Below, piece after piece: positions 10,228-22,607 of a stretch of DNA of 64,000 nucleotides; positions within the stretch are counted from its first letter, which is position 1, and every line of letters begins with the position of its first letter. The position numbers and the translations under genes were made by a program. This DNA comes from Bacillota bacterium (GTDB lineage: Bacteria; Bacillota; DSM-12270; Thermacetogeniales; Thermacetogeniaceae). Under the pieces are notes generated by a model. That model had not been told where the DNA came from, did not search any database, and saw nothing but the letters and a program-made list of their open reading frames with translations. The stretch is taken from contig JABLXW010000013.1 of assembly GCA_013177945.1 (NCBI GenBank), positions 124,001 through 188,000 on the forward strand. The letters are read 5' to 3'.

Positions 10228-10488
10228 TTTCTCACTCTAGAAATTTATCTAAATTTAAAGGATTTGCCCATCATATAATGAAAAACTGCTAAATTATTTG
10301 TCTATCCGCTTAATCTTTGGATTTGAAAATAATTAGCAAATAAATTATATTATTTACGAACAACCTCAATTAATTAACTAAGTTGTTTGTTCAAATACAT
10401 TGCAAGTTGAGATTTATCAGAGGAATAGGGTTATCCACAGATCCGTAAATAAGGGTGGTTGGTTCTTTACAGCAAAAGGGGGGTAGTT

Positions 10489-11745
10489 ATGAACTTTCAT
10501 GGCAAAATGTTGTTTATCTCTGTCCACGGCGATCCTTTCGCCAGACTGGGCAATATTCAGTCGGGAGGTCAGAATGTCTACGTCAGGGAATTGGTACAGG
10601 CGCTTGATTCCTTGGGCATCGAGGTAGATGTTTTCACTCATTATTCAGATCCGAAGTTTCCCGAAGAGGAACCCCTGGGCAAGAACTCTCAAGTAATAAG
10701 GCTTCAGGCAGGATATAAAGGATTTAGATCCAAACATCAAATGTTACAGATCCTTCCCAAGTTCACGAGTGAGCTTAAACAATATATGGGGAAACGTAAT
10801 AAATATACTTTAATACACAGCAATTACTGGCTGTCTGGCTGGGTAGGGTTACAACTGCAAAAGATCTATCGTATACCCCGGGTACATACCTCCCATTCGC
10901 TCGGAATCGTCAGAAAGAACGCTCTGGGTACGAATAACCCGTTGCTTTCAGTTCGCCTGCAAATAGAAAAAGAAGTGCTGCAGAAAGCGGATAAGGTGAT
11001 AGCGACAACCCCTCTTGAGCAAAAAATATTATCCGACTACTACTCGGTAGATCCCCAAAACATATCGTTGGTGCCCTGTGGTGTAAACACCAATCTTTTT
11101 CATCCTGCTGAAGACAATAAGCCTCTAGGGCTGGTGAAAGAAAACAAAAAGATCATTCTTTTTGTGGGTCGGTTTGAGGAAAATAAAGGTCTGCAGGTTC
11201 TCTTAAAATCATTCGACATTTTAAAGAAAAAGCACCCCTCAACGGCGGCGGAGACCTTGCTGGTAATTGTCGGTGGTGATAGTTTGGATACACCACCGGC
11301 CTCCCTGAGCCCCGAAAAAAAGAAATATATGAAGTTCATTCGGGAAAATGGGCTTTCCGACCAGGTTGTCTTTACAGGGCCGGTACAACATAGTTCGCTC
11401 CCTTCCTGGTATGCCGGTGCATGGGTTACAGTGGTCCCTTCATATTATGAATCTTTCGGGCTGGTTGCCTTGGAGGCGATGGCCTGCGGGTGTCCTGTAA
11501 TAGCTTCCCGTACCGGAGGTTTACAACAAAACGTTCTCCATGGTAAAACTGGACTGCTTGTGGAGCCAAAAAACCCGATGGATCTGGCAACAGCAATAAA
11601 TTATCTGATTACGAACGAAAAGGCCAGGAACGAAATGGCGAAGCAAGCAGCACTTCATGGAAAAAAATTTACTTGGAAAAAAACAGCTTCAAACCTTGTA
11701 GCAATTTATAAGGAGGTTGCAGATGGCGGGAGAAAGTCCAAGTAA
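10489..11745 (+). CDS. GT4 glycosyltransferase, sucrose-phosphate-synthase-like
   Basis: A 418-residue retaining glycosyltransferase of the GT-B fold. The N-terminal part has GGQNVYVRELVQALDSLG, the acceptor-side signature shared by sucrose-phosphate and mannosylfructose-phosphate synthases. The C-terminal part has VGRFEENKGL and the EX7E-type motif ESFGLVALEAMACG (about residue 320). ATG 10489 follows an aaaagggggg site. The next gene, overlapping by 23 bases, is a matching HAD sugar-phosphate phosphatase. The pair probably makes a non-reducing sugar (sucrose or a relative) as a compatible solute. The exact donor and acceptor cannot be read by eye. Confidence 0.82.
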   Translation: MNFHGKMLFISVHGDPFARLGNIQSGGQNVYVRELVQALDSLGIEVDVFTHYSDPKFPEEEPLGKNSQVIRLQAGYKGFRSKHQMLQILPKFTSELKQYMGKRNKYTLIHSNYWLSGWVGLQLQKIYRIPRVHTSHSLGIVRKNALGTNNPLLSVRLQIEKEVLQKADKVIATTPLEQKILSDYYSVDPQNISLVPCGVNTNLFHPAEDNKPLGLVKENKKIILFVGRFEENKGLQVLLKSFDILKKKHPSTAAETLLVIVGGDSLDTPPASLSPEKKKYMKFIRENGLSDQVVFTGPVQHSSLPSWYAGAWVTVVPSYYESFGLVALEAMACGCPVIASRTGGLQQNVLHGKTGLLVEPKNPMDLATAINYLITNEKARNEMAKQAALHGKKFTWKKTASNLVAIYKEVADGGRKSK

Positions 11746-12475
11746 AAAACCTAAATATATCCTGGCAACAGATCTCGATGGCACGCTTGTGGGTAGCCGA
11801 TCGGCATTGAGTGAGTTCAACCGCTTGATGTTAAAACACAAAAATGATATTCTTCTGGTTTACATCACAGGAAGAACCCTTATATCAGCTTGGCAGCTCA
11901 TTGTTCAGGAAAACCTTCTGTATCCCCATGTGCTGATTACAGATGTGGGAACAGAGATTTACACTCCCCCCTGGTTTAGACCGGACCTGGTATGGGAGAG
12001 CCTAATGGCATCCAACTGGGACGAGAAAGAAATCAGGTCTGTAATTGAAAGGATAGAAGGCTTGCAAAAACAAGAAGTGCATGCAAGATTCCGGCTTGCT
12101 TACTATACTGACAGGACAACATTTAAAGAGACTGTTGCACGGCTTTTCGAATCTGTCAGACAGACCAAACTGCCTGTAACAATAGTTCCTTCTATGGGAT
12201 ACATCATTGATGCTATCCCTTCTTGTGCAGGGAAGGGGGCAGCGCTCCAATATGTACAGAAGCTTTATTGCATTAAAAGAGAGCATACCCTCGTTTGTGG
12301 CGACAGCGGGAATGACCTGTCCATGTTTTTAAAAGGGTATAAAGGAATTGTGGTCGGGAACGCCCAGCCGGAACTTAAAGAAAGTATCAAAAACATCCCT
12401 GATGAGATTTATTTATCCAGGTCACACTATGCAGAAGGAATACTGGAAGGTCTGAAATCATACGGGGTTATTTAA
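11723..12475 (+). CDS. HAD phosphatase, sucrose-phosphate-phosphatase-like
   Basis: A 250-residue HAD-superfamily phosphatase of the Cof/SPP type. Motif I is DLDGTL (about residue 16), motif II YITGRT (about 50), and the C-terminal motif GDSGNDLSMF (about 193), with Lys in AGKGAALQYV between them. These match sucrose-6-phosphate and mannosylfructose-phosphate phosphatases. ATG 11723 follows AGGAGG at 11711-11716. It overlaps the glycosyltransferase gene and would remove the phosphate from that enzyme's product, pulling synthesis forward. Its 3' end overlaps a CBS-domain remnant on the other strand. Confidence 0.85.
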   Translation: MAGESPSKKPKYILATDLDGTLVGSRSALSEFNRLMLKHKNDILLVYITGRTLISAWQLIVQENLLYPHVLITDVGTEIYTPPWFRPDLVWESLMASNWDEKEIRSVIERIEGLQKQEVHARFRLAYYTDRTTFKETVARLFESVRQTKLPVTIVPSMGYIIDAIPSCAGKGAALQYVQKLYCIKREHTLVCGDSGNDLSMFLKGYKGIVVGNAQPELKESIKNIPDEIYLSRSHYAEGILEGLKSYGVI

Positions 12476-12707: not shown

Positions 12708-12794
12708 TTAATTTGGATGGTACAGGGCTTCCCCAGTTAAGCCTGCCTGCCTGAGCATGAATCCGTCTATCCTAACTCCCCAGGTTATCCAGCC

Positions 12795-12972
12795 TTCGAG
12801 CTTTCCCACTTCACGCAAGGTCACCCACCTGGAGAGCCAACCCCGGTTAGCTCATTCCATGCTCTTCCTTCGGCCTTCTTCAGACCCGCCGTTGCCGGCG
12901 ACGCCCTTGCCTGCGGATGGTCTTCCCGCTTACTCAGTGACAGGGTTTCTTTCAATCCACCGGCTCAGCAGG
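12795..12972 (-). ncRNA. Structured GC-rich RNA, candidate stand-alone HEARO/omega RNA
   Basis: No gene fits this stretch, but it has strong RNA-like structure on the minus strand. There is a 5-bp hairpin closed by a GCAA (GNRA) loop at 12887-12900. A closing stem pairs 12882-12886 with 12919-12923. A 9-bp stem (12833-12841 with 12845-12853) has one mismatch that becomes a U-G pair only on the minus strand. The order of elements (CTGAGTAA, a GACC...GGTCTGAAGAAGG hairpin, then GAGCATGGAATGA) resembles what I remember of HEARO (omega) RNAs that guide IscB nucleases. No iscB gene is present. Identity rests on memory of the family and needs a covariance-model search. Confidence 0.42.
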
Positions 12973-12992
12973 CATGCTGGGCGAACGTAAAA

Positions 12993-13015
12993 CGGCTGGG
13001 GGTTTACCCCAGCCG
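12993..13015 (-). terminator. Terminator of the RuBisCO-like operon
   Basis: A 9-bp perfect inverted repeat (CGGCTGGGG / CCCCAGCCG, 5-base loop) overlaps the stop codon of the last minus-strand gene. On the minus strand it is followed by TTTTACG. It is the probable 3' end of the operon. Confidence 0.7.
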
Positions 13016-13837
13016 GATCTCCTTGTACTGCCTGGTGATCTCCACTATCGCCGTCTCGGTGGGCAGGCGCTCACCGCTGGAACCGGCGGCATATCCCACC
13101 GCACCGGAGTTCATAATGGAATACCGGGCGGTTTCCACGTCCTTGAAGGGGCCGCCGTGGGTGAGAACGAGCACCTCCGGGTTCACCTCTCTGGCAGCCC
13201 TGCAGATCTCCTGGATGTGCCTGGTGGCATCCTCGAGGCTCTGGGACTTTTTCGCCCCCGTCAGGCCGCCGACGGTCACCCCCACAATGGCGCCGATCAC
13301 GTCGGCGCCGGCTTCGGCCATGATCCGCCCCTCCTCCGGGGTAAAGGCCCAGGCCACCGTGAAGACATCCTTCCTGTGGGCGGTTCTGATCAGTTCCACT
13401 TCCCGGGAGAAGCCGATCCCCGCAGCCTCGAGCTGCTCCGCAAACTCCCTGCCGTAAATGCCCACAAAGGGCTCGTTGGTAATCCCGGAAAAGCCCATCT
13501 CCAGCAATTCGTCAATGAACTTTTCCATATTCAGGGCGGGGTCGTGGGCGCCGATCCCGGCGATGCACGGGGTTTCCCTCACCGCCGGAAGGGTCTCCCG
13601 GGCCATCCTAGCCACGTGTTCGTTGGCGTTGGAATAGGGGAGCCAAGCCAGCAGGGAGGGCTGACCCATCATCCGGTAGTAGGCGGTGCTGTAGACGCCG
13701 ATGAGATCGGCTCCGCCCATTTCGGCGCACCTGGCGGTCAGGCCGATCCCCGCCCCGAACATGAGGAGGGCCTTTCCCTGCCGGACCTGGCCGCGCAGGC
13801 GCTCCAGCACCTCTTGCCGCGTATAGCGCTTAGCCAC
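13004..13837 (-). CDS. PEP-hydrolase-family TIM-barrel protein (Tm-1 C-terminal half homologue), copy 1
   Basis: A 277-residue TIM-barrel protein of the phosphoenolpyruvate hydrolase-like family (PF09370). Recognisable motifs are KALLMFGAGIGLTARCAEMGG near the start, DLIGVYSTAYYRM, PCIAGIGAHDP, FVGIYGREF and LVLTHGGPF near the end. GTG 13837 follows AGGGGGTG; a longer reading to 13897 would run into the previous gene and is less likely. The gene lies 11 bases after the UPF0261 gene, in the same order as the two domains of the fused plant Tm-1 protein. No reaction is established for this bacterial pair. A second copy lies two genes away, beside the RuBisCO-like gene. Confidence 0.88.
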   Translation of the reverse strand: MAKRYTRQEVLERLRGQVRQGKALLMFGAGIGLTARCAEMGGADLIGVYSTAYYRMMGQPSLLAWLPYSNANEHVARMARETLPAVRETPCIAGIGAHDPALNMEKFIDELLEMGFSGITNEPFVGIYGREFAEQLEAAGIGFSREVELIRTAHRKDVFTVAWAFTPEEGRIMAEAGADVIGAIVGVTVGGLTGAKKSQSLEDATRHIQEICRAAREVNPEVLVLTHGGPFKDVETARYSIMNSGAVGYAAGSSGERLPTETAIVEITRQYKEIRLG

Positions 13838-13848
13838 CGGAACACCCC

Positions 13849-15192
13849 CTAGAACGGAACGACGTAGGGAAGGTCCTGGTGGCTTCCCTTCTTCCACTTG
13901 CCGTTCAGCATCTCTTCCAGCAGTTCCGCCATCAGGTCGGCGAACTCGGGCTCGTTCAGGTGCCTGTCGACGATGATCACGTCGAGATTCGGCTTGTCCC
14001 TGTCAATGACCTTGCGCAGGGCGGATACGAAATAGCCGCTCCGCAGCGACCATCCGGGATGATCCGGGTCTTCCGCCCAAACGGGTCCCGGCCCGGGCCC
14101 CGCCCAGCCGAGATCCTTGTTCGGCGCCGGAAGGTCGCAGGCACCCCAGCCCCGCATCGGCACGCAGAGCACCGTCGGCCCCTTTGCCCTGTTGAGCTTT
14201 TCGGCGATATGCTCCCCGATGCGGTACGCCTCCTCGGTGGACACCCCGATGCACGTCACCATCGGGTTGTGGACGTAGAGGCCGCGGCCGGGCCGGTCGG
14301 TCTCCTTGAGCAGCCTCTCCGGCACCGTATCCTTGGGCCCGAAGTTGATCAGGTCGAGGCCGCCCGGTGCCACAACCTGGGGAATTCCCTTCTCCCCGGC
14401 GGCTGTGAGGCGATCCGGGCCCGCACTGAGCACGCCTCCCAGCAAAAAGTCACCGATCTCGTGGGTGGTGATGTCCAGGATCCCCACGATGTAGCCGTCC
14501 CGGATCAGTTCCTCCATCGACCGGCCGCCGCTGCCCACGGCGTGGTTGATCATAACATCGTAGCCCCGGTCCTCAAAGTACTTTGACGCCCGCAGAACGC
14601 AGGGGGTGGTGACCCCGAACATCATGCACCCGATGAGCGGCTTTTCTGCAACCGCCCCTGTTTCCGGAGCATTTGCCATACCCACAATGGCGCCTGCGGC
14701 GTTGTTCAGAATCCGGCGGGTCACCTTGTTGAGGCCGGCCTCGGCGATGGGATACATCAGGCAGAGGTCCTTGGTCCCCACGTAAGGGCTGACGTCCCCG
14801 GAGGCCATGGTGGTCAGCATGAACTTCGGGAGTCCGATGGGGAGGGTCTGCATGATGCGGGTGGCGATGCTCGCCCCCATGGACCCGCCGTAGGCGATCA
14901 TCCCGTCCAGCCTGCCTTCCCTGAGCAGTCTGGCGACAAGTTTCGAGGCGGCTTCGACGATGATGTCGGAGGCCTTGCCCCGGTCCAGGGCGAAGATCTC
15001 CTCCTTTGTGCGGCCGATCTCACCCAGGACCTGGCCGATGCCGATGTCGGCCCAGCCCACTTCCCGCCCGACGCTCAATTCCAGTATGGTCGGCTCGCCG
15101 CCGGCGGCCCTGACTCGTTCGGCCAGGTACCTAATCTCCTGCCCCTTGGTATCCAGGATTCCCGCCACGATAATGCTCGGTCCCTTTCCCAT
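13849..15192 (-). CDS. UPF0261 / Tm-1-like ATP-binding protein
   Basis: A 447-residue protein of the UPF0261 family, the N-terminal half of Tm-1-like proteins. Motifs are IIVAGILDTKGQEIRYLAE at the start, MIAYGGSMGASIATRIM, FMLTTMASGDVSPYVGTKD, and HEIGDFLLGGVLSAGPDRL. Plant Tm-1 binds nucleotide in this domain; the bacterial substrate is unknown. ATG 15192 follows AAGGAGGA. It is placed directly before a TIM-barrel gene homologous to the other half of Tm-1, which suggests the two proteins act together. The operon context (RuBisCO-like protein, ComB-like phosphatase) points to a small phosphorylated acid as substrate; that is inference. Confidence 0.9.
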   Translation of the reverse strand: MGKGPSIIVAGILDTKGQEIRYLAERVRAAGGEPTILELSVGREVGWADIGIGQVLGEIGRTKEEIFALDRGKASDIIVEAASKLVARLLREGRLDGMIAYGGSMGASIATRIMQTLPIGLPKFMLTTMASGDVSPYVGTKDLCLMYPIAEAGLNKVTRRILNNAAGAIVGMANAPETGAVAEKPLIGCMMFGVTTPCVLRASKYFEDRGYDVMINHAVGSGGRSMEELIRDGYIVGILDITTHEIGDFLLGGVLSAGPDRLTAAGEKGIPQVVAPGGLDLINFGPKDTVPERLLKETDRPGRGLYVHNPMVTCIGVSTEEAYRIGEHIAEKLNRAKGPTVLCVPMRGWGACDLPAPNKDLGWAGPGPGPVWAEDPDHPGWSLRSGYFVSALRKVIDRDKPNLDVIIVDRHLNEPEFADLMAELLEEMLNGKWKKGSHQDLPYVVPF

Positions 15193-15218
15193 AGCTTTGT
15201 CCTCCTTTCCGGACAACC

Positions 15219-15974
15219 TCAGGTTAAAGGCGTGAATTCGCAGGGATTGCTGTTGATGAGGACGGGCACCAGATCAGAAACGTCGACCCTGCTGCAGGAG
15301 GCAATGTCCTCCTCTCGTTTTATCTCCACCAAGCGCCGCCCGCTGCTAGACTCCATAAAGCAGGACCTGATGTCCGGGTAGGAGTCAAACAGCCGGTGGG
15401 CGGCCCGGGCGGCGTCGGAGACCATCAGATCAAGTTCCATTTCCTTTCCCGTACGCAGCAGGGTTTTGACCAGGTAACCGGCGCAGCAGGCATCGTCCAG
15501 GACGAATCTTCCCTTTTCGCCGGCGCAGACGATCCCGACTCCTGTACCGTGTTCCCGGACAAGCTCCAGTGCCCTCCTGCAGCAGGCGGATGCGTTGAGA
15601 AAACAGCCGATAAGCACCGCCCGGGAAAAGGCCGCCTTTTTGATTACCTTTGTCCCGTTGGTGGTGGTCAGAACGGCCTTTTTCCCCCGGAGATTCATCC
15701 CCTCCAGCTCAAAGGGGGAATTGCCGAAATCGAACCCTCTTACTGTCAGGCCGTTGCGTTCCCCGCCGATGAGCCACCCCTTTTCCCGGGCCAGGGCCCG
15801 GGCCCCGGCAACTGATCCTACAGTATAGACGCTCCGGCAGCCCTTATCCAGAAGAGTGACGATGGTGGAACTGGCGCGGATCACGTCCACCACGATGCAG
15901 ACCAGGTCTCTCCAGGCAGGCCGCACCTCGGATGGCACCAGGGCAACGTCGACTAAAAGCGTGCCCATCCCCAT
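15219..15974 (-). CDS. ComB-family phosphatase (2-phosphosulfolactate phosphatase-like)
   Basis: A 251-residue protein of the ComB family, Mg2+-dependent phosphatases that release sulfolactate in coenzyme M synthesis. Family motifs are VVDVIRASSTIV (about residue 30), GGERNG (about 70), VLTTTNGTKV (about 102) and CAGEKGRFVLDDACCAG (about 152). ATG 15974 follows GGGGGATG. No other coenzyme M genes are nearby. It sits between TIM-barrel copy 2 and the UPF0261 gene, so it probably acts on a different phosphorylated 2-hydroxy acid made or used by the RuBisCO-like pathway. Family assignment is firm; substrate is not. Confidence 0.88.
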   Translation of the reverse strand: MGMGTLLVDVALVPSEVRPAWRDLVCIVVDVIRASSTIVTLLDKGCRSVYTVGSVAGARALAREKGWLIGGERNGLTVRGFDFGNSPFELEGMNLRGKKAVLTTTNGTKVIKKAAFSRAVLIGCFLNASACCRRALELVREHGTGVGIVCAGEKGRFVLDDACCAGYLVKTLLRTGKEMELDLMVSDAARAAHRLFDSYPDIRSCFMESSSGRRLVEIKREEDIASCSRVDVSDLVPVLINSNPCEFTPLT

Positions 15975-16001
15975 CAAAGCTCATCCCCCTAAACTGCGGT
16001 T

Positions 16002-16844
16002 CTATTTCTTCAGCGGAACGTTCTTAAACTGGCGTACCGCCTCGGTGAGCGGCACCTCGATCGGAATGCGCTCGATGCTGGAGGCACCCAGGAAGCCTAC
16101 CGCCTCGGTGTGCTGGTAGATGTAAGCGGTGTCCTCGGGACTGGAGATGGGGCCGCCGTGGGCGAAGATCATGATGTCCGGGTAGCCTTGCCTGGCCGCC
16201 CTGGTCATCTCCCGGATGAGCTCCGCGGACTGCTCCAGGGTCATGGTTTCGGCATACTTGGAGCCGATAGAACCCCCCTTGGTGAGGCCCATGTGGCAGA
16301 TGAGGACGTCCAGCTGGGCCCGGCCGACCATGGCCGCTTCCTCCACGTTGAAGGCATAGCCGAGGGTGAAGAAGCCAAGCTCCTTGGCCAGCTTCAGGGC
16401 TTCAATCTCCACGCCGTAGCCCATTCCGGTGTCCTCCAGTTCCTTGCGGAACCTCCCGTCAATGAGGCCTACGGTGGGGAAGTTCATGACGGCCGAGAAG
16501 CCGATCTCCTTGAGCTGCTTCAGGTAATAGCGCATCTCCCGGGTGGGGTCCGTCCCGCAGATCCCGGCGATCATGGGGGTCTCCTTGATTACCGGGAAGA
16601 CCCGGTTGGCCAGGTCGATGACGATCTGGTTGGCGTCCCCGTAAGGCATCAACCCGGCCAGGGAGCCCTTGCCGTCCATCCGGAACAGCCCGGAGTTGTA
16701 GACCCCGATCAGGTCGACACCCCCCCTCTCCGCAAACTTACCGGAGATCCCGGTGCCGGCACCGGCGATGATGACCGGTTTCCCCTCCGCAATGGTCTTC
16801 TTCAAGCGGGCCAATACCTCTTCTCTGGTGTACTGCTTTGCCAT
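16002..16844 (-). CDS. PEP-hydrolase-family TIM-barrel protein, copy 2
   Basis: A 280-residue paralogue of the protein at 13004-13837. Shared features are the N-terminus KQYTREEVLARLKK, the loop IIAGAGTGISGKFAERGGVD, DLIGVYNSGLFRMDGKGS, PMIAGICGTDPT and MIFAHGGPISSPED. ATG 16844 follows AAGGAGG with good spacing. It starts 27 bases after the RuBisCO-like gene and precedes the ComB-like gene. Two diverged copies in one operon suggest either two related C-C or C-O bond-cleaving steps or a heteromeric enzyme. Both readings are inferences. Confidence 0.88.
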   Translation of the reverse strand: MAKQYTREEVLARLKKTIAEGKPVIIAGAGTGISGKFAERGGVDLIGVYNSGLFRMDGKGSLAGLMPYGDANQIVIDLANRVFPVIKETPMIAGICGTDPTREMRYYLKQLKEIGFSAVMNFPTVGLIDGRFRKELEDTGMGYGVEIEALKLAKELGFFTLGYAFNVEEAAMVGRAQLDVLICHMGLTKGGSIGSKYAETMTLEQSAELIREMTRAARQGYPDIMIFAHGGPISSPEDTAYIYQHTEAVGFLGASSIERIPIEVPLTEAVRQFKNVPLKK

Positions 16845-16871
16845 TTCCCGACAACCTCCTTGTTTTTTTAT

Positions 16872-18188
16872 TTAAGCCTTGATTTCAAAGATGCCCGGCC
16901 TTTCCTCATCGGGATAGCCCCAGGCATCAAGCGCAGCCTTTAATTCGGGATGATCTTTGGCCGCATCCCGCAGGTCGATGCCGTTCATGGCGGCGTCGAT
17001 TGCCTGCCGCATCGCCCTTCCCCCGGCCTCGGGGCCCATCGGGTGACCGTGAATGGCGCCTCCAGCCCCCAGAATGCAGTCGTTCCCCAGGTCTCTGATG
17101 ATGGCGGGCACCACAGAAGGCATCACCCCGCCGCCCGGCATGGGAAAAGCCGGCTTAAAGTGCAGCCACTTACTTAAAAGATGATGCCCGATCTCCAGAT
17201 AGCGTTCCCTCAGGAACGGGAATTTGCCGAAGGGGCTCGGGTAAACCACGATGTCGGCCCCTGCCAGCCGGGCCAGCTTGCCCAGGATGAGGTGGGAGCT
17301 CATACCGGAATAGGGGGATTCGTACATGGTTCCTGCAAAATCCAGGTGCGCCAGGATCGGCACGTTGATCTCCGGGTCCTCGGCCAGTGCCTGCAGCACC
17401 GAAATACCGACGGTCAGGTAGTTGAGCATGATGCCGTTTGCCCCGGCATCGATCGCCCGCCTGGCGTTGTCCCGGACCCTGTCGGCCCGGTCGGTAACGT
17501 TTACGGTGTAAAGCACCTTGTGCCCCGTCTCTTCGTAAATACGTCTGGCCTCCTCCATGTAGAGCCTGACCCTGTCCACCATCGGGCAGAATACCGGATC
17601 GGCGATCAGTTCATCATCCTTGACGATGTCAACACCCCCCCGGGCGGCACGGGAAAACAGCTTGGCGCCGACCTCCGGGGTGTAGCCGGTGCAGGGCTTG
17701 ATCATGTTGTTCAACAGCGGCCGCTTTTCCACTCCCAGGATCTCCCGGACTCCCTTCGTTCCGAACTTGGGGCCCTTGAAGCCCTTCAGGAAGGGTGTGG
17801 GGAATTTGAGGTCCAGGAGCTTCAATTTCCCGGACATGGAGATGTTGCCGATAACAGTACTCAAGAGCATGGGGATCTGGGGGCCGAAATTCACCACCGG
17901 ATAGGCGAGCTGGAAGACGAACTGCCTTGTCCTGGCTTCTGCGGGCACCTCAAACTCGTACCCCGGCACTTCGTAAATACCCACTACCTTTGCCACGTGC
18001 TTTTCACGCACTTCCGGGGTTTCTTCGGGGACCGCAACCCAGGTTCCTGTTGTTTGCTCTACCGCGATGGCGCTGATCTTCGAGACGATATCGCTCCCGA
18101 CACCTGTTTCCAGATAGTAGGTGGCGATCACGTAACTGTCCTCTTTTTCGATCTGTTCAGGAATGGCAAGCATGTCCAATGACGACAC
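16872..18188 (-). CDS. RuBisCO-like protein (form IV-type)
   Basis: A 438-residue member of the RuBisCO large-subunit superfamily; GTG 18188 follows AAGGAGGA, and a longer reading to 18230 has no better site. The carbamylation and metal motif is intact: GGVDIVKDDE, with Lys190, Asp192 and Glu193 matching K201, D203 and E204 of spinach. Lys164 (IKPCTG) matches K175, but the next catalytic position, K177, is Cys166. His281 (LAHLDFAG) may match H294. Loop 6 reads LILGKLARLAGAD, the style of RuBisCO-like proteins, with PGGG at 351-354. It likely performs an enolase, isomerase or transcarboxylase-type step, not CO2 fixation. There is no small subunit, phosphoribulokinase or methionine-salvage gene nearby. 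Confidence 0.9.
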   Translation of the reverse strand: MSSLDMLAIPEQIEKEDSYVIATYYLETGVGSDIVSKISAIAVEQTTGTWVAVPEETPEVREKHVAKVVGIYEVPGYEFEVPAEARTRQFVFQLAYPVVNFGPQIPMLLSTVIGNISMSGKLKLLDLKFPTPFLKGFKGPKFGTKGVREILGVEKRPLLNNMIKPCTGYTPEVGAKLFSRAARGGVDIVKDDELIADPVFCPMVDRVRLYMEEARRIYEETGHKVLYTVNVTDRADRVRDNARRAIDAGANGIMLNYLTVGISVLQALAEDPEINVPILAHLDFAGTMYESPYSGMSSHLILGKLARLAGADIVVYPSPFGKFPFLRERYLEIGHHLLSKWLHFKPAFPMPGGGVMPSVVPAIIRDLGNDCILGAGGAIHGHPMGPEAGGRAMRQAIDAAMNGIDLRDAAKDHPELKAALDAWGYPDEERPGIFEIKA

Positions 18189-18299
18189 TAAAATCTCCTC
18201 CTTGTCCGTGGGCCGTATCGCACGTAGCATTTAGAGTATCTCCCCAAATACACCGCCTTATCAGACCCTCATGGCAGCCATCACCTCGATCACGCCGGT

Positions 18300-18371
18300 G
18301 TAAACAAAAAGTCCCACCCCTGTAACCTTACGGTTACTCCAGGAGTGGGACTTACTCTCGTCTCTAGTCCC
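18300..18371 (-). promoter_or_regulatory. Attenuator-like leader of the RuBisCO-like operon
   Basis: On the minus strand a long hairpin (arms 18345-18353 and 18309-18317, continued inward by GTAACC/GGTTAC) is followed by TTTTTGTTT, a Rho-independent terminator. Just upstream, GGGACT at 18371-18366 can pair with AGTCCC at 18352-18347. Those bases belong to the 5' arm of the terminator, so the two hairpins exclude each other. The site lies about 50 bases after glpP and about 110 bases before the RuBisCO-like start. GlpP proteins act as leader antiterminators, so control by GlpP is a natural inference. A plain glpP terminator is the alternative. Confidence 0.6.
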
Positions 18372-18423
18372 GGCTTAATATGACTTTCAGTTTATATCTT
18401 CGATATGAAATTTAAAACTCCTT

Positions 18424-19008
18424 CTAAAGATTTTCGACGTTCCACAATTTTTCCGCGCTGGTGTCCACGGCAACCGCTCCGGCCTTGAGAACCAGCCGGA
18501 GATCCTGGATGCCTTTGATCAGTCCCGCTGCGATAATCGGCTGTTGAAAGTGCTCCCTGAGCTCGTCCATCACCCGGAGCACGGCCAGCCCCGGCAGGAC
18601 CTCGATGAAGTGGGGTTTCGACTGTTTCAAAACACTGATGCCGGTGGCGATGGAAGGGGAATCGTGGGCGAACAGCCTCTGCACCGTGAGCAGTCCTTCC
18701 TTGCGCGCCGCGGTGATCAGCTGGCTGCCAGGCGTGACTATCCCGGTGACCCGGGCCTTCTCTTTCAAGAACCTGACGGCGGTGTGATCCCTGCCCAGCC
18801 CGGCTATGAGATCCACGTGGACCAGCACCAGTTTGTTGTGCTTCTCCAGTTCACGGCCGATCTCTTCTACGTTGAAAATATCACCGGAAGAGATCAGAAC
18901 AACCCGCGCTCTGCAGGAAAGCGCAACCGGCAGCAGTTCCTCCCTGCGGAGCGACGCAATCACCGGGTAGGCTTTGATCGCCTGCATGAATTCCGCTATC
19001 CGGGGCAT
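18424..19008 (-). CDS. glpP: GlpP-family glycerol-3-phosphate-responsive antiterminator
   Basis: A 194-residue protein covering the whole GlpP family: PVIASLRREELLPVALS at the N-terminus, VVLISSGDIFNVEEIG, VHVDLIAGLGRDHTAVRFLK, VTGIVTPGSQLITAARKEG, and the C-terminal IIAAGLIKG...VDTSAEKLW. In Bacillus, GlpP with glycerol-3-phosphate binds the glpD leader and prevents termination. Here no glpF, glpK or glpD gene is adjacent. The next gene is the RuBisCO-like protein, preceded by an attenuator-like leader. The protein may therefore sense glycerol-3-phosphate or a related phosphate for that operon. ATG 19008 follows a weak AAAGGGT site; a promoter lies near 19194. Confidence 0.9.
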   Translation of the reverse strand: MPRIAEFMQAIKAYPVIASLRREELLPVALSCRARVVLISSGDIFNVEEIGRELEKHNKLVLVHVDLIAGLGRDHTAVRFLKEKARVTGIVTPGSQLITAARKEGLLTVQRLFAHDSPSIATGISVLKQSKPHFIEVLPGLAVLRVMDELREHFQQPIIAAGLIKGIQDLRLVLKAGAVAVDTSAEKLWNVENL

Positions 19009-19267: not shown

Positions 19268-19295
19268 AGGCCGGGAGGTGCATTGCTCCCGGCCT
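19268..19295 (-). terminator. Terminator after the ABC permease gene
   Basis: A perfect 10-bp inverted repeat (AGGCCGGGAG / CTCCCGGCCT, 8-base loop) is followed on the minus strand by TTTTTATC. It closes the GntR-ATPase-permease operon, 33 bases after its last stop. Confidence 0.85.
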
Positions 19296-19327: not shown

Positions 19328-21343
19328 TTAATCCAGCTGTTCCAGGTATTCTCTCAACGCCTCCGAAGCCGGCCAATCCCGCCGGATGGAGCGGTGGTAC
19401 TGGAAGGCGCCCGCTGCCGTCTTTCCGTAAAAGGTTACTTCGACGGTTTTTCGCGGGCCGGGGCTGCCCTCGGGGCCGGATATGTAGAGCAGTTCCTCGA
19501 TCAGCTGCCGGTCCCTGATCTCAATCTGCCCGGTCACCCGGCCGGTCTCATCAACCTCGGGAGGTACGCGATATTCCAGGACGGCATATTCGACCTCCTC
19601 CGGCAGCAGCGCGACTTTCTCATAATACCCCTTTTCGTTGAGCCAGGCAACAGCCGACCTGTAACTGGTTCGAAGGTTGTAGTATTCCGGAACCGGATGG
19701 TTTACCGGCATTCCGGCGGAGTACACGATGCTGGCATGCAGGTGCTCTCCGGTATCGGCGGTCATTTCTTCAAAAGTGGTGTTGAGCAAATCCTGCTTCA
19801 ACCGGGCGGTAAACTCTTCGATTTCAGCCTTGTCTACCAAGAAGATCGGCCCTTTTGGGGTCCTGTCATCGTCGATCTCGATCATTTTTATCCTGGCAGG
19901 GTTCTGCACCAACACCGGGAACCTGGCCTGTTTATACTCCAGGGACTCGTACAGGGGTTTAAGAAGGGAGGCGTAATCCCTCTCGTCGAAGGAATACCGG
20001 CGGGCCAGATAGCCGTCATCCAGGATATAAACGAGGTAATGGTCAATCCCTTCTTTAGGGCGAGGATGCTTCAGCAACTGCCGGTGCAGGAGAATGATGT
20101 TTTTGATGTTGTTTCGATCTTTGAAAAAGGTGCCGCCTCTGTACCCTATGTTTTGCTCTCCGGTGCTTTCCTGCTCGTCTTGAAGCATCCAACCACCGAT
20201 ACTGGTGCCGAAGTAAACCTTCTTCACCTTTTCCGGGGCGGGAACCCGGTGCACATAACCGGTGGCGTCGGTGGCAATCCCCAGCAGCAGCACCGCCACC
20301 ACCACGGCATATCCCAGGTAACCCTTGTACGACGACCAGACCTTCAAAGATTTCTGCAGCAGGGCCTCGGCCGTCAGGTACCCCAGCAGGGAACCCAGCA
20401 CGTAGCCCAGGGCGATGACGGGGAAAGCGCCTTGATACGCGGCGGCAAAGTAGGCTCCCGCCAGCAGCATGGTGCAGGCGGTCACTCCGTACTTGAAAAC
20501 CGGGCGCAGGACCGGAAAGGCAACCACCTCGCCGGCGGCTTCGGCGGGCCTCCACCTGTAAACAAGGAGGGCGACGGCCAGGAAGAAGAGGGCCGCCAGA
20601 AGGTATACCGCAACGGTTCCGGAAACGTTTTCGGCGGCGGAGAGATTCCTGGAAGTGGCGCCGGCAAACACCATTAGAGGAAAATTATACTGTAGTTTGT
20701 CGGGTTGGGTGATGACGGCATAGCCGTAAACCAGGTGCCGGAGGTTTTCGGACAGGAGCACGTGCAAACCGCTGGGCAGGACCTGCAGGATGTAGGTGAA
20801 GATGATGTGGGCAACAGTATTCCCCGTGAACATTCCTACAAAAACGGCGATGGAAAAGGTTAATGTGTCGAAAAGGGCCGTCATGCCCATCCACCGGAGA
20901 ATGTCCCACGCCGTATAATACTCCTTCAAATGGGTAGCGGCATTCAGGGCCAGGAGCACCAGGCCCGTGGCCAAAACGGGCAGGAGCAGCAGCACCAGCC
21001 CCGCCGCTGTGTGGCTGAGAAAGAGGGTCTTCCGGTCGAGGGGGAGGCTGTGCAGGACTGCCGTTGCCCGTCCGTTGTGTAGATATTGAAAAAGCAGCAT
21101 TGCCAGGATGACGGGCACGGTGCAGATCAGGAGGGCCTGCAGCCCGCTCCCGCCGGAGAAAATATCCAGCGAGCGCCGCAGCATTTCCCCGACCCATTCA
21201 CTGTCTACGGGCAAATTCTTCATCATGTGGTCGAAGGGCAGGATTAAGAGCAGGGCGATGCCGTACAGGGCGCCGATCCACCAGAACCTTTTGAGATCGC
21301 TGGCAATCACTCCTTTACTAAATAAGGACACTTTGAATGTCAT
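19328..21343 (-). CDS. ABC-2-type permease with large C-terminal extracellular-type domain
   Basis: A 671-residue membrane protein. About 11 membrane helices occupy roughly the first 370 residues, with the motif LHSLPLDRKTLFLSH typical of this exporter permease family. A soluble C-terminal region of about 300 residues follows (from about VHRVPAPEKVKKVYFG), resembling the DUF6449-type extension of YtrC/YtrD-like permeases. ATG 21343 follows GGGGGGAAT. It overlaps the ATPase gene by 26 bases. With the GntR regulator it forms a Ytr-like operon, a type usually induced by cell-wall-active compounds. The substrate is unknown. Confidence 0.85.
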   Translation of the reverse strand: MTFKVSLFSKGVIASDLKRFWWIGALYGIALLLILPFDHMMKNLPVDSEWVGEMLRRSLDIFSGGSGLQALLICTVPVILAMLLFQYLHNGRATAVLHSLPLDRKTLFLSHTAAGLVLLLLPVLATGLVLLALNAATHLKEYYTAWDILRWMGMTALFDTLTFSIAVFVGMFTGNTVAHIIFTYILQVLPSGLHVLLSENLRHLVYGYAVITQPDKLQYNFPLMVFAGATSRNLSAAENVSGTVAVYLLAALFFLAVALLVYRWRPAEAAGEVVAFPVLRPVFKYGVTACTMLLAGAYFAAAYQGAFPVIALGYVLGSLLGYLTAEALLQKSLKVWSSYKGYLGYAVVVAVLLLGIATDATGYVHRVPAPEKVKKVYFGTSIGGWMLQDEQESTGEQNIGYRGGTFFKDRNNIKNIILLHRQLLKHPRPKEGIDHYLVYILDDGYLARRYSFDERDYASLLKPLYESLEYKQARFPVLVQNPARIKMIEIDDDRTPKGPIFLVDKAEIEEFTARLKQDLLNTTFEEMTADTGEHLHASIVYSAGMPVNHPVPEYYNLRTSYRSAVAWLNEKGYYEKVALLPEEVEYAVLEYRVPPEVDETGRVTGQIEIRDRQLIEELLYISGPEGSPGPRKTVEVTFYGKTAAGAFQYHRSIRRDWPASEALREYLEQLD

Positions 21344-22217
21344 AGCCGATTCCCCCCAGCTCATAGATAAAAATCTCCTCCAGTGTCAACGGCAAAATAT
21401 CCAGAACGACCGGGTTGGCCCGCCGCACCTCGGACAGAAGCCGGTCTTTATCCCCCCTCACAATCAACTGAAGGATGCTCCCGCTTTGCTGCCGGTGCAG
21501 AACCGTTTCCGTCTGAAGGAGGTCTGGAGGCACTTCTCCGGCAAACGCAACCTGAATTTTATGAATATCCGTCTTTAACTCATCGAGATCTCTTTCCACC
21601 AGGATTGTGCCGTTGTGCAGGATCCCCACATGATCGCAGACATCCTCCAGCTCCCGCAGGTTGTGGGAGGAGACCAGCACCGTGGTTTCGCGTTCGGCCA
21701 CATCCTGAAGCACCAGGTTCCAGACCTGTTTCCGCATCACCGGGTCCAGGCCGTCCACCGGCTCGTCCAGGAGCATCACCCGGGGCATGGCGCAGATCCC
21801 CAGCCAGAAGGCCACCTGTTTCTGCATCCCCCGGGACAGACGGGTGACTTTTCTTCTGGGGTCGATGGAGAACACCTGCTTCAAGAGCCGGTATCTCTCC
21901 CAGCTCCAGGCGGGGTAGAGGCCGGCATAAAACCGGGCCGTTTCCTCAATGCTGTATTGGGAGAAGAAATAGAGCTCGTCGGGTACGTAAACCAGGTGCG
22001 CCTTAACCTCGGGATTCTCGTAAACCGCCCGCCCGTCGATGGTGACGGTTCCTGCATCCTGCCGGTAGACACCGGCCAGATGCTTGATGAGGGTGGTCTT
22101 GCCGGCTCCGTTAGGCCCCACCAAGCCGTAAACGGAGCCTTTCTTGACATTGATACTGACGTTCTCCAGAGCTTTGATTTTGCCAAAGCTCTTGCTGAGC
22201 TTTCTGACCTCTATCAC
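21318..22217 (-). CDS. ABC transporter ATP-binding protein (Ytr-like operon)
   Basis: A 299-residue ABC ATPase. Walker A GPNGAGKTT is at residues 34-42, with Q-loop region VYVPDELYFFSQYS, signature LSRGMQKQ, Walker B VMLLDEP followed by VDGLDPV, and switch His in VSSHNLRE. The C-terminal 80 residues form the regulatory extension common in drug-export ATPases. ATG 22217 overlaps the GntR gene by 4 bases, and the gene's end overlaps the permease gene. It supplies energy to the permease at 19328-21343. Confidence 0.92.
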   Translation of the reverse strand: MIEVRKLSKSFGKIKALENVSINVKKGSVYGLVGPNGAGKTTLIKHLAGVYRQDAGTVTIDGRAVYENPEVKAHLVYVPDELYFFSQYSIEETARFYAGLYPAWSWERYRLLKQVFSIDPRRKVTRLSRGMQKQVAFWLGICAMPRVMLLDEPVDGLDPVMRKQVWNLVLQDVAERETTVLVSSHNLRELEDVCDHVGILHNGTILVERDLDELKTDIHKIQVAFAGEVPPDLLQTETVLHRQQSGSILQLIVRGDKDRLLSEVRRANPVVLDILPLTLEEIFIYELGGIGYDIQSVLI

Positions 22218-22594
22218 TCAATCAGGCCTCCTTTCCTGTAGATGGCGCGAACGACCTCCATCAGGTGCTCGAGCGGTTCGTTCAGATACATCAGCTCAGA
22301 AACGGTTTTTTCCAGTTCCCGAAGCAGCTCCTCCCGCCGGGGGTTGTGGGCCGACCGGTCCTGTGGGGCGACAAAGCTGCCCTTGGCCCGGATGGAGTAA
22401 ATGAACCCCTCCGCCTCCAGGTCCTTGTAGGCCTTCTGGATGGTGTTGGGATTGACGGTCAGCATCTGGGCGAGTTCGCGCACCGAGGGTAACCGCTCGT
22501 CCGGCTTCAACACCCCGCTGATGATCAGCGTCTTGATTTTTTCCTTGATCTGTTCGTGCAGGGGTCGGCGATCCCTGAAGTCCAGCTGTAACAT
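22214..22594 (-). CDS. GntR-family (YtrA-type) transcriptional repressor
   Basis: A 126-residue regulator. A winged helix (residues 8-75) contains PLHEQIKEKIKTLIISG and the recognition segment LTVNPNTIQKAYKDLEAEGF. The short C-terminal tail (about 45 residues) is the YtrA subfamily form, without a ligand-binding domain. ATG 22594 follows AGGAGG at 5 bases; an in-frame GTG lies two codons earlier. A perfect palindrome lies in its own leader region, so it most likely represses the whole operon. YtrA-type repressors respond to antibiotics or envelope stress; the signal here is unknown. Confidence 0.92.
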   Translation of the reverse strand: MLQLDFRDRRPLHEQIKEKIKTLIISGVLKPDERLPSVRELAQMLTVNPNTIQKAYKDLEAEGFIYSIRAKGSFVAPQDRSAHNPRREELLRELEKTVSELMYLNEPLEHLMEVVRAIYRKGGLIE

Positions 22595-22607
22595 AGGCAC
22601 CTCCTCT

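Follow-up and report, generated by a model that had tools for sequence, protein, structure and literature searches.

What does a RuBisCO-like protein (RLP) do when its gene stands among partners that no described RLP route brings together? The question is raised by a locus at positions 13004–19008, on the minus strand of a 64,000-nt stretch (hereafter the window) of contig JABLXW010000013.1 from a Bacillota bacterium of the Thermacetogeniaceae (assembly GCA_013177945.1, genome G000). The window's open reading frames and Pfam matches define six genes there, encoding a GlpP homologue, the RLP, a first PEP_hydrolase-like triosephosphate isomerase (TIM) barrel (PEPh1), a ComB-like phosphatase, a UPF0261 protein and a second such barrel (PEPh2). 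We find a real conserved operon whose pathway is not assigned to a known route, and we are inclined to think, by a modest measure, that its pathway is a hitherto undescribed one: a UPF0261/Tm-1-type kinase would feed a form IV RLP whose reaction differs from those of methionine salvage and apionate use, and GlpP would control the operon through a GlpP-class RNA element outside Rfam. The six gene identities of the original prediction, all on the minus strand, agree with strong Pfam scores, and its gene positions stand except for two start codons, those of the RLP and PEPh2, which are corrected below.

The case for an operon begins with gene order, which was followed in a family and phylum sample of 398 phylum genomes and in a broad scan of 84,980 species genomes. 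In the smaller sample, all RLPs at least 72% identical to that of the window are encoded in the order RLP-PEPh1-(ComB)-UPF0261-PEPh2, to the extent that the contigs cover it. The broad scan gave 19 loci with this order (group A, L129–L147), mostly labelled Syntrophomonadaceae/Syntrophomonas or unclassified Bacillota, and in seven more Clostridia loci (group B), that of Candidatus Formimonas warabiya DCMF among them, this order recurs but ComB is missing and the RLPs show 53–57% identity. ComB is absent from L131 and L137 as well, which makes it a facultative member. The cassette is best traced by PEPh1, its most conserved part: 14 of the 398 genomes encode it at 80% identity or above, the next best match falls to 58%, and an RLP gene, truncated in one case, adjoins it in all 14. 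In genome G049 (L044:9508–10431) the RLP gene is cut to 307 codons right before PEPh1; the other cassette genes look intact, and the truncated RLP is nearest to group B.

Could these genes be incidental neighbours serving separate processes? UPF0261–PEPh pairs are indeed widespread where no RLP is present, and their many settings include Gfo/Idh, cupin and sugar ATP-binding cassette (ABC) transporter genes. The order does not vary, however, across Syntrophomonadaceae and the other Clostridia, and this, together with the complete co-occurrence of PEPh1 and RLP, places the gene set far beyond chance and makes this explanation barely credible. The expectation that the genes would be conserved together in related genomes is therefore confirmed for RLP, PEPh1, UPF0261 and PEPh2, with ComB falling outside the invariant core. 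The earlier remark that no known RLP route unites these partners also holds, in that our literature search found no paper joining an RLP with UPF0261 or a PEP hydrolase, nor one describing the combination.

The RLP gene (16872–18188) most likely starts at GTG 18188, giving 438 aa, rather than at ATG 18230, in view of an aaggaggag ribosome site and the start shared by relatives. Its product matches RuBisCO_large with 163.1 bits, has PF00016 and PF02788 above cut-off, and fits the form IV RLP superfamily in its RuBisCO fold domains, its retention of K201/D203/E204 and its incomplete RuBisCO site. Judged by its sequence, it is neither MtnW nor OiaX nor RuBisCO. Its scores are too low for both MtnW models (TIGR03332, 365.7 against a cut-off of 513.6; NF007095, 406.8 against 409) and the OiaX model (NF042437, 184.4 against 700), and the narrowness of the second miss means that automatic annotation could easily label it MtnW. 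In a tree of 84 sequences, group A forms one clade with support of 100/100 that holds the window RLP, and MtnW forms its own 100/100 clade, which excludes group A. The RLP phylogeny proposed earlier as a check thus sets the protein apart from MtnW, as the missed cut-offs do from MtnW and OiaX, in a comparison made without the R. rubrum DeepYkr isomerase.

These results bear directly on methionine or 5'-deoxyadenosine salvage, in which the RLP would be a 2,3-diketo-5-methylthiopentyl-1-phosphate (DK-MTP-1-P) enolase (MtnW) or an R. rubrum-type 5-methylthioribulose-1-phosphate (MTRu-1-P) isomerase and its neighbours would process the released carbon. The nearest named models and structures are indeed those of MtnW, with 2OEK the best PDB match, DeepYkr RLPs isomerise MTRu-1-P (PMC5893883), and MtnA is present in the genome. 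However, the MtnW cut-offs are missed, the MtnW clade sits beside MtnX, MtnB and MtnD genes that are absent from the operon, Pfam finds no cupin in the operon, and MtnA occurs in relatives with and without the operon and so does not track it. K98 of MtnW (2OEK numbering), which we take to be its catalytic lysine, aligns with Asn129 of the window RLP, a position that is Asn in all RLPs with the IKPC motif and in RuBisCO. Methionine salvage was rejected on these grounds, and we consider it improbable.

The tree also bears on the history of the cassette. Group B RLPs stand apart from group A, beside RLPs linked to the phosphotransferase system (PTS; group D), with which they share 100/99 support, and mean identity is 64% between B and D against 53% between B and A. 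Between A and B the rest of the cassette is alike (PEPh1 77%, UPF0261 64%, PEPh2 63%). The simplest reading is that the RLP slot was kept and the RLP itself replaced; the comparison is suggestive of a single replacement within a fixed cassette, tempered by the slow evolution of PEPh1.

What chemistry might the RLP perform? Aligned on RuBisCO columns, it retains E60, T65, W66, N123, K175, K201, D203, E204, H294 and K334; K177, R295, H327 and S379 are replaced by C, L, V and G, and G404 by Ala, a partial change at phosphate site 1 (the H294 and R295 columns are the less certain part of this alignment). In RuBisCO, T65, W66, K334 and a glycine pair make up the site of the C1 phosphate, and R295, H327 and S379 that of the C5 phosphate. 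With the Mg-carbamate residues and most phosphate-1-site residues kept, a singly phosphorylated substrate is likely, and the pattern suggests that the RLP may bind one phosphate, at site 1, and carry out enolase- or isomerase-type chemistry. CO2 fixation was rejected owing to the four replacements at K177, R295, H327 and S379 and because this is the only RuBisCO-family gene in the genome.

A phosphorylated substrate would call for a kinase, and the best candidate is the UPF0261 protein (13849–15216), which matches the Pfam N domain (PF06792, 170.2 bits) and C domain (PF23189, 233.3 bits) above cut-off. Its AlphaFold model (predicted local distance difference test 90.9) matches the Tm-1 fold structures 3WRY and 9MPY, the latter (Saro_1862, with bound acetovanillone) at 33% identity by fold alignment (E 1.5e-36). 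Fold matches to UDP-GlcNAc 2-epimerases were weak and globally poor (template modelling score about 0.2) and were not used. Independently, the first step of acetovanillone use in N. aromaticivorans is reported to be the work of a single-component kinase, MarK (PMC13101465). Our best guess from the relationship to 9MPY is that UPF0261 is probably a small-molecule kinase, a role that would supply the kinase otherwise missing from the operon.

The two barrels flank this candidate kinase and the phosphatase. PEPh1 (16002–16844) and PEPh2 (13004–13837) match PEP_hydrolase (PF09370) over the whole barrel (368.3 and 333.7 bits) and are distinct subfamilies, about 40% identical. PEPh2, of the Tm-1 C-terminal-domain family, most likely starts at GTG 13837 (277 aa) rather than at 13897, by alignment with relatives, which places its start 12 bp past the UPF0261 stop. 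An opposite-strand reading frame over PEPh2 in several loci, like that at 12974–13852 in the window, was taken as a shadow frame. PEPh1 is 47% identical to 2P10 and shares its barrel, and the next fold matches are phosphoenolpyruvate (PEP) mutase and methylisocitrate lyase; 'PEP hydrolase' is an annotation label, and from modelled folds PEPh1 appears to share only the barrel of PEP mutase and methylisocitrate lyase. The phosphatase (15219–15977; relative 1VR0), a putative Mg-dependent enzyme, matches 2-ph_phosp (PF04029) with 236.8 bits and TIGR00298 with 158.2 against an equivalog cut-off of 175.05, scores that mark it as a member of the ComB family but not as ComB proper. A HisJ-type phosphatase of the polymerase and histidinol phosphatase (PHP) family lies near several group B loci in place of ComB, not invariantly, and hints at a dephosphorylation step there.

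The same structures admit an aromatic alternative, in which UPF0261 would phosphorylate a phenol as MarK does, the RLP and barrels would modify the side chain, and ComB would remove the phosphate in an Hpe-like scheme. Syntrophomonadaceae often grow on degradation products, a habit in keeping with this proposal, as is the acetovanillone bound in 9MPY. The Hpe route itself consists of phosphorylation, carboxylation and dephosphorylation (PMC9618137). The operon, however, holds no biotin carboxylase or CoA ligase, the partners of related RLPs in other genomes are sugar enzymes, and the GlpP-family regulator suggests a triose-phosphate-like effector, so that we regard a phenolic substrate as very unlikely.

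Those related RLPs, which carry the IKPC motif, recur beside differing phosphoryl donors (groups C, D and E). In group C (L148–L208), from Chloroflexota, archaea and other phyla, the RLP follows an FGGY kinase that is xylulokinase-like, often with a saccharopine-dehydrogenase-like gene next. Group D RLPs accompany a galactitol-type PTS and EI/HPr, with a class II aldolase in several loci; L045, L051, L054–L057 and L064 lie in galactitol-type PTS operons, several with both class II aldolase and alcohol dehydrogenase genes. Group E combines the RLP with UPF0261, sugar ABC genes, class II aldolase, RpiB and TpiA. In L047, L048 and L063 UPF0261 directly adjoins the RLP, and L047 and L063 also have the class II aldolase, RpiB, TpiA and sugar ABC genes; these three loci are a separate, sugar-type use of the RLP and UPF0261 families.

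Such neighbourhoods lend some weight to the sugar-acid catabolism of the original prediction, which we took in the form that a C4–C6 (keto) sugar acid would first be phosphorylated, then decarboxylated or isomerised by the RLP in the manner of OiaX, and finally cleaved by the barrels to a product of the pyruvate or PEP type. That RLPs do take part in routes of this kind is shown by OiaX and by a Rhizobium RLP whose gene lies next to one for a four-carbon acid sugar kinase. UPF0261, class II aldolase, RpiB and TpiA accompany the RLPs of group E, and in its fold PEPh1 comes near to PEP mutase and methylisocitrate lyase. Against this, the OiaX model is missed by a wide score difference, the Rhizobium acid-sugar RLP keeps R295, H327 and S379, which the window RLP has lost, and the conserved cluster has no transporter or dehydrogenase gene; we consider this route rather unlikely. 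The broader idea of a phosphometabolite route was a reasonable guess that all parts fit, but the pyruvate- or PEP-like product is unsupported, PEPh1 sharing only a barrel with the enzymes that would suggest it.

How might the operon be regulated? The first gene (18424–19008) encodes a GlpP homologue (G3P_antiterm, PF04309, 183.5 bits against a cut-off of 27; PDB relatives 3KTS and 1VKF) and hence a probable RNA-binding antiterminator. Between it and the RLP gene lies a leader of about 0.23 kb inside the unit, in which an element at 18305–18371, kept in 11 loci, carries a conserved GGGACnAGAGAnGAGAGTnAGTCCC, the 3' arm of which doubles as the 5' arm of a strong terminator that closes with a run of T. 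The predicted antiterminator hairpin, in the 5' part, is GGGAC-AGAGAnGAGAGTnA-GTCCC, its GTCCC arm being shared with the terminator, and the intrinsic terminator, in the 3' part, is GTCCCACTCC...GGGGTGGGAC-TTTTT. The AGAGAnGAGAGT loop is nearly invariant in the 11 loci and its flanks vary in length and sequence. The terminator shows covariation, with 18 double-change cells where shuffles give 8.5. Energies predicted for four leaders are about −7 kcal/mol for the antiterminator and −25 to −29 kcal/mol for the terminator, a difference such that antitermination would need a helper.

This element appears to be specific to the operon. Leader-model hits of at least 57 bits and pattern hits with 0–1 mismatch lie solely before this operon among the 398 genomes; the next hit has 33 bits, and hits at or below that score were not counted, having no AGAG motif where inspected. 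No copy was found elsewhere in G000, the region near glpP of the GlpK-bearing relative G022 gave no match, and neither did Rfam. Loci L136 and L138–L147 are without the element and also without glpP nearby. G000 has a single GlpP, which tracks the RLP operon, and no glycerol kinase (TIGR01311) was found in G000 or in the operon-bearing relatives G004, G005, G006 and G008, so that GlpP looks dedicated to the operon. It is likely that GlpP acts as a dedicated regulator with a phosphometabolite ligand, and glycerol sensing in this operon seems doubtful. A glycerol regulon was set aside because no GlpK was found and the leader element was found nowhere else in G000.

Taken together, we tentatively posit, at just short of an even chance, an operon whose enzymes would convert a hydroxylated, sugar-like metabolite inside the cell. 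UPF0261 would transfer phosphate from ATP to the substrate, perhaps with PEPh2 acting as a Tm-1-type partner barrel; the RLP would hold the resulting monophosphate where RuBisCO has its phosphate-1 site, and there Mg2+ and the carbamylated lysine would enolise or isomerise it; PEPh1, as a barrel of the PEP-mutase/isocitrate-lyase type, would perform the following C–C or mutase step; and ComB would strip the phosphate in lineages having it. The terminator between glpP and the RLP gene would stop transcription by default, and GlpP loaded with a phosphorylated effector would stabilise the overlapping antiterminator hairpin.

Several points weigh against this scheme. The conserved RLP residues do not fix its reaction, and the chemistry assigned to both PEPh barrels is putative. 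MarK acts on phenols and the window UPF0261 is only a distant relative; moreover, we infer the identity of Saro_1862 with MarK from the PDB title and a citing paper. On the side of regulation, the antiterminator helix is short and hardly varies and so gains little support from covariation, the link between glpP and the leader comes from one clade and probably one loss, and L036 keeps the element with no glpP found in its 84%-complete genome.

Terminator-like hairpins at 19268–19295, marking the end of an upstream transcript, and at 12993–13015, at the operon end (both on the minus strand, from a terminator scan), flank the genes and make one plausible transcription unit. Upstream, at 19328–22600 on the minus strand, lie genes that look like those for a GntR regulator, an ABC ATPase and a membrane protein of 678 aa that has no Pfam match. 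Just downstream, 12741–12901 (minus strand) matches the Group II intron D1-D4-3 RNA with 39.7 bits against a gathering score of 32, and at 10459–12475 a glycosyltransferase family 4 gene and then a sucrose-phosphate-phosphatase-like gene run convergent with the operon on the plus strand, both scoring below the equivalog cut-offs of named sucrose enzymes.

Most RLP clades are without a known reaction, and the UPF0261/Tm-1 pair spans bacteria to tomato; no description of the pair's metabolic role appeared in the papers found. In many anaerobes the operon joins the two families in a constant order, and so it points to an undescribed job for each. Its short RNA element is a defined candidate target of a GlpP-family protein in genomes seemingly without glycerol kinase, and through it the family's specificity for ligand and RNA becomes testable. 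Beyond these points, our additions to the earlier prediction are the probable kinase identity of UPF0261, the RLP replacement and the single-phosphate pattern.

Several parts of the operon have a characterised or named counterpart. The closest characterised RLP by sequence is MtnW (the DK-MTP-1-P enolase of the YkrW clade, form IV), which has the Mg/carbamate triad and K175 in common with the window RLP but differs at about 40% identity, in its separate clade, in K98, in its MtnX, MtnB and MtnD neighbours and in the model cut-offs. RLP1 of R. rubrum and R. palustris (DeepYkr, an MTRu-1-P 1,3-isomerase; PMC5893883) acts on a ketose 1-phosphate and is a plausible model for the chemistry; its partner is a cupin methylsulfurylase and not a kinase, UPF0261 protein or barrel, whereas the window operon has no cupin. 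Saro_1862 (9MPY), presumably MarK, belongs to the same UPF0261 family, but MarK is a single-component kinase of aromatic monomers, and the window operon has no aromatic-pathway partners. The window's UPF0261 gene followed by a PEP_hydrolase-type barrel corresponds to the two halves of tomato Tm-1 and to bacterial UPF0261 and TIM-barrel pairs (PMC5028733), as separate genes; the operon couples this pair with an RLP, a further barrel and, often, a phosphatase. Mll9387 (2P10), a structural-genomics entry named putative phosphonopyruvate hydrolase, has its barrel in common with PEPh1 and is encoded in M. japonicum by Tm-1-like, cupin and Gfo/Idh genes, with no RLP. Finally, GlpP of B. subtilis, which acts in antitermination of glpD and glpFK (PMC9604022), likewise combines a GlpP-family protein with an intrinsic terminator in the target leader, but in the window's genome, with no GlpK detected, the putative target is the RLP operon.

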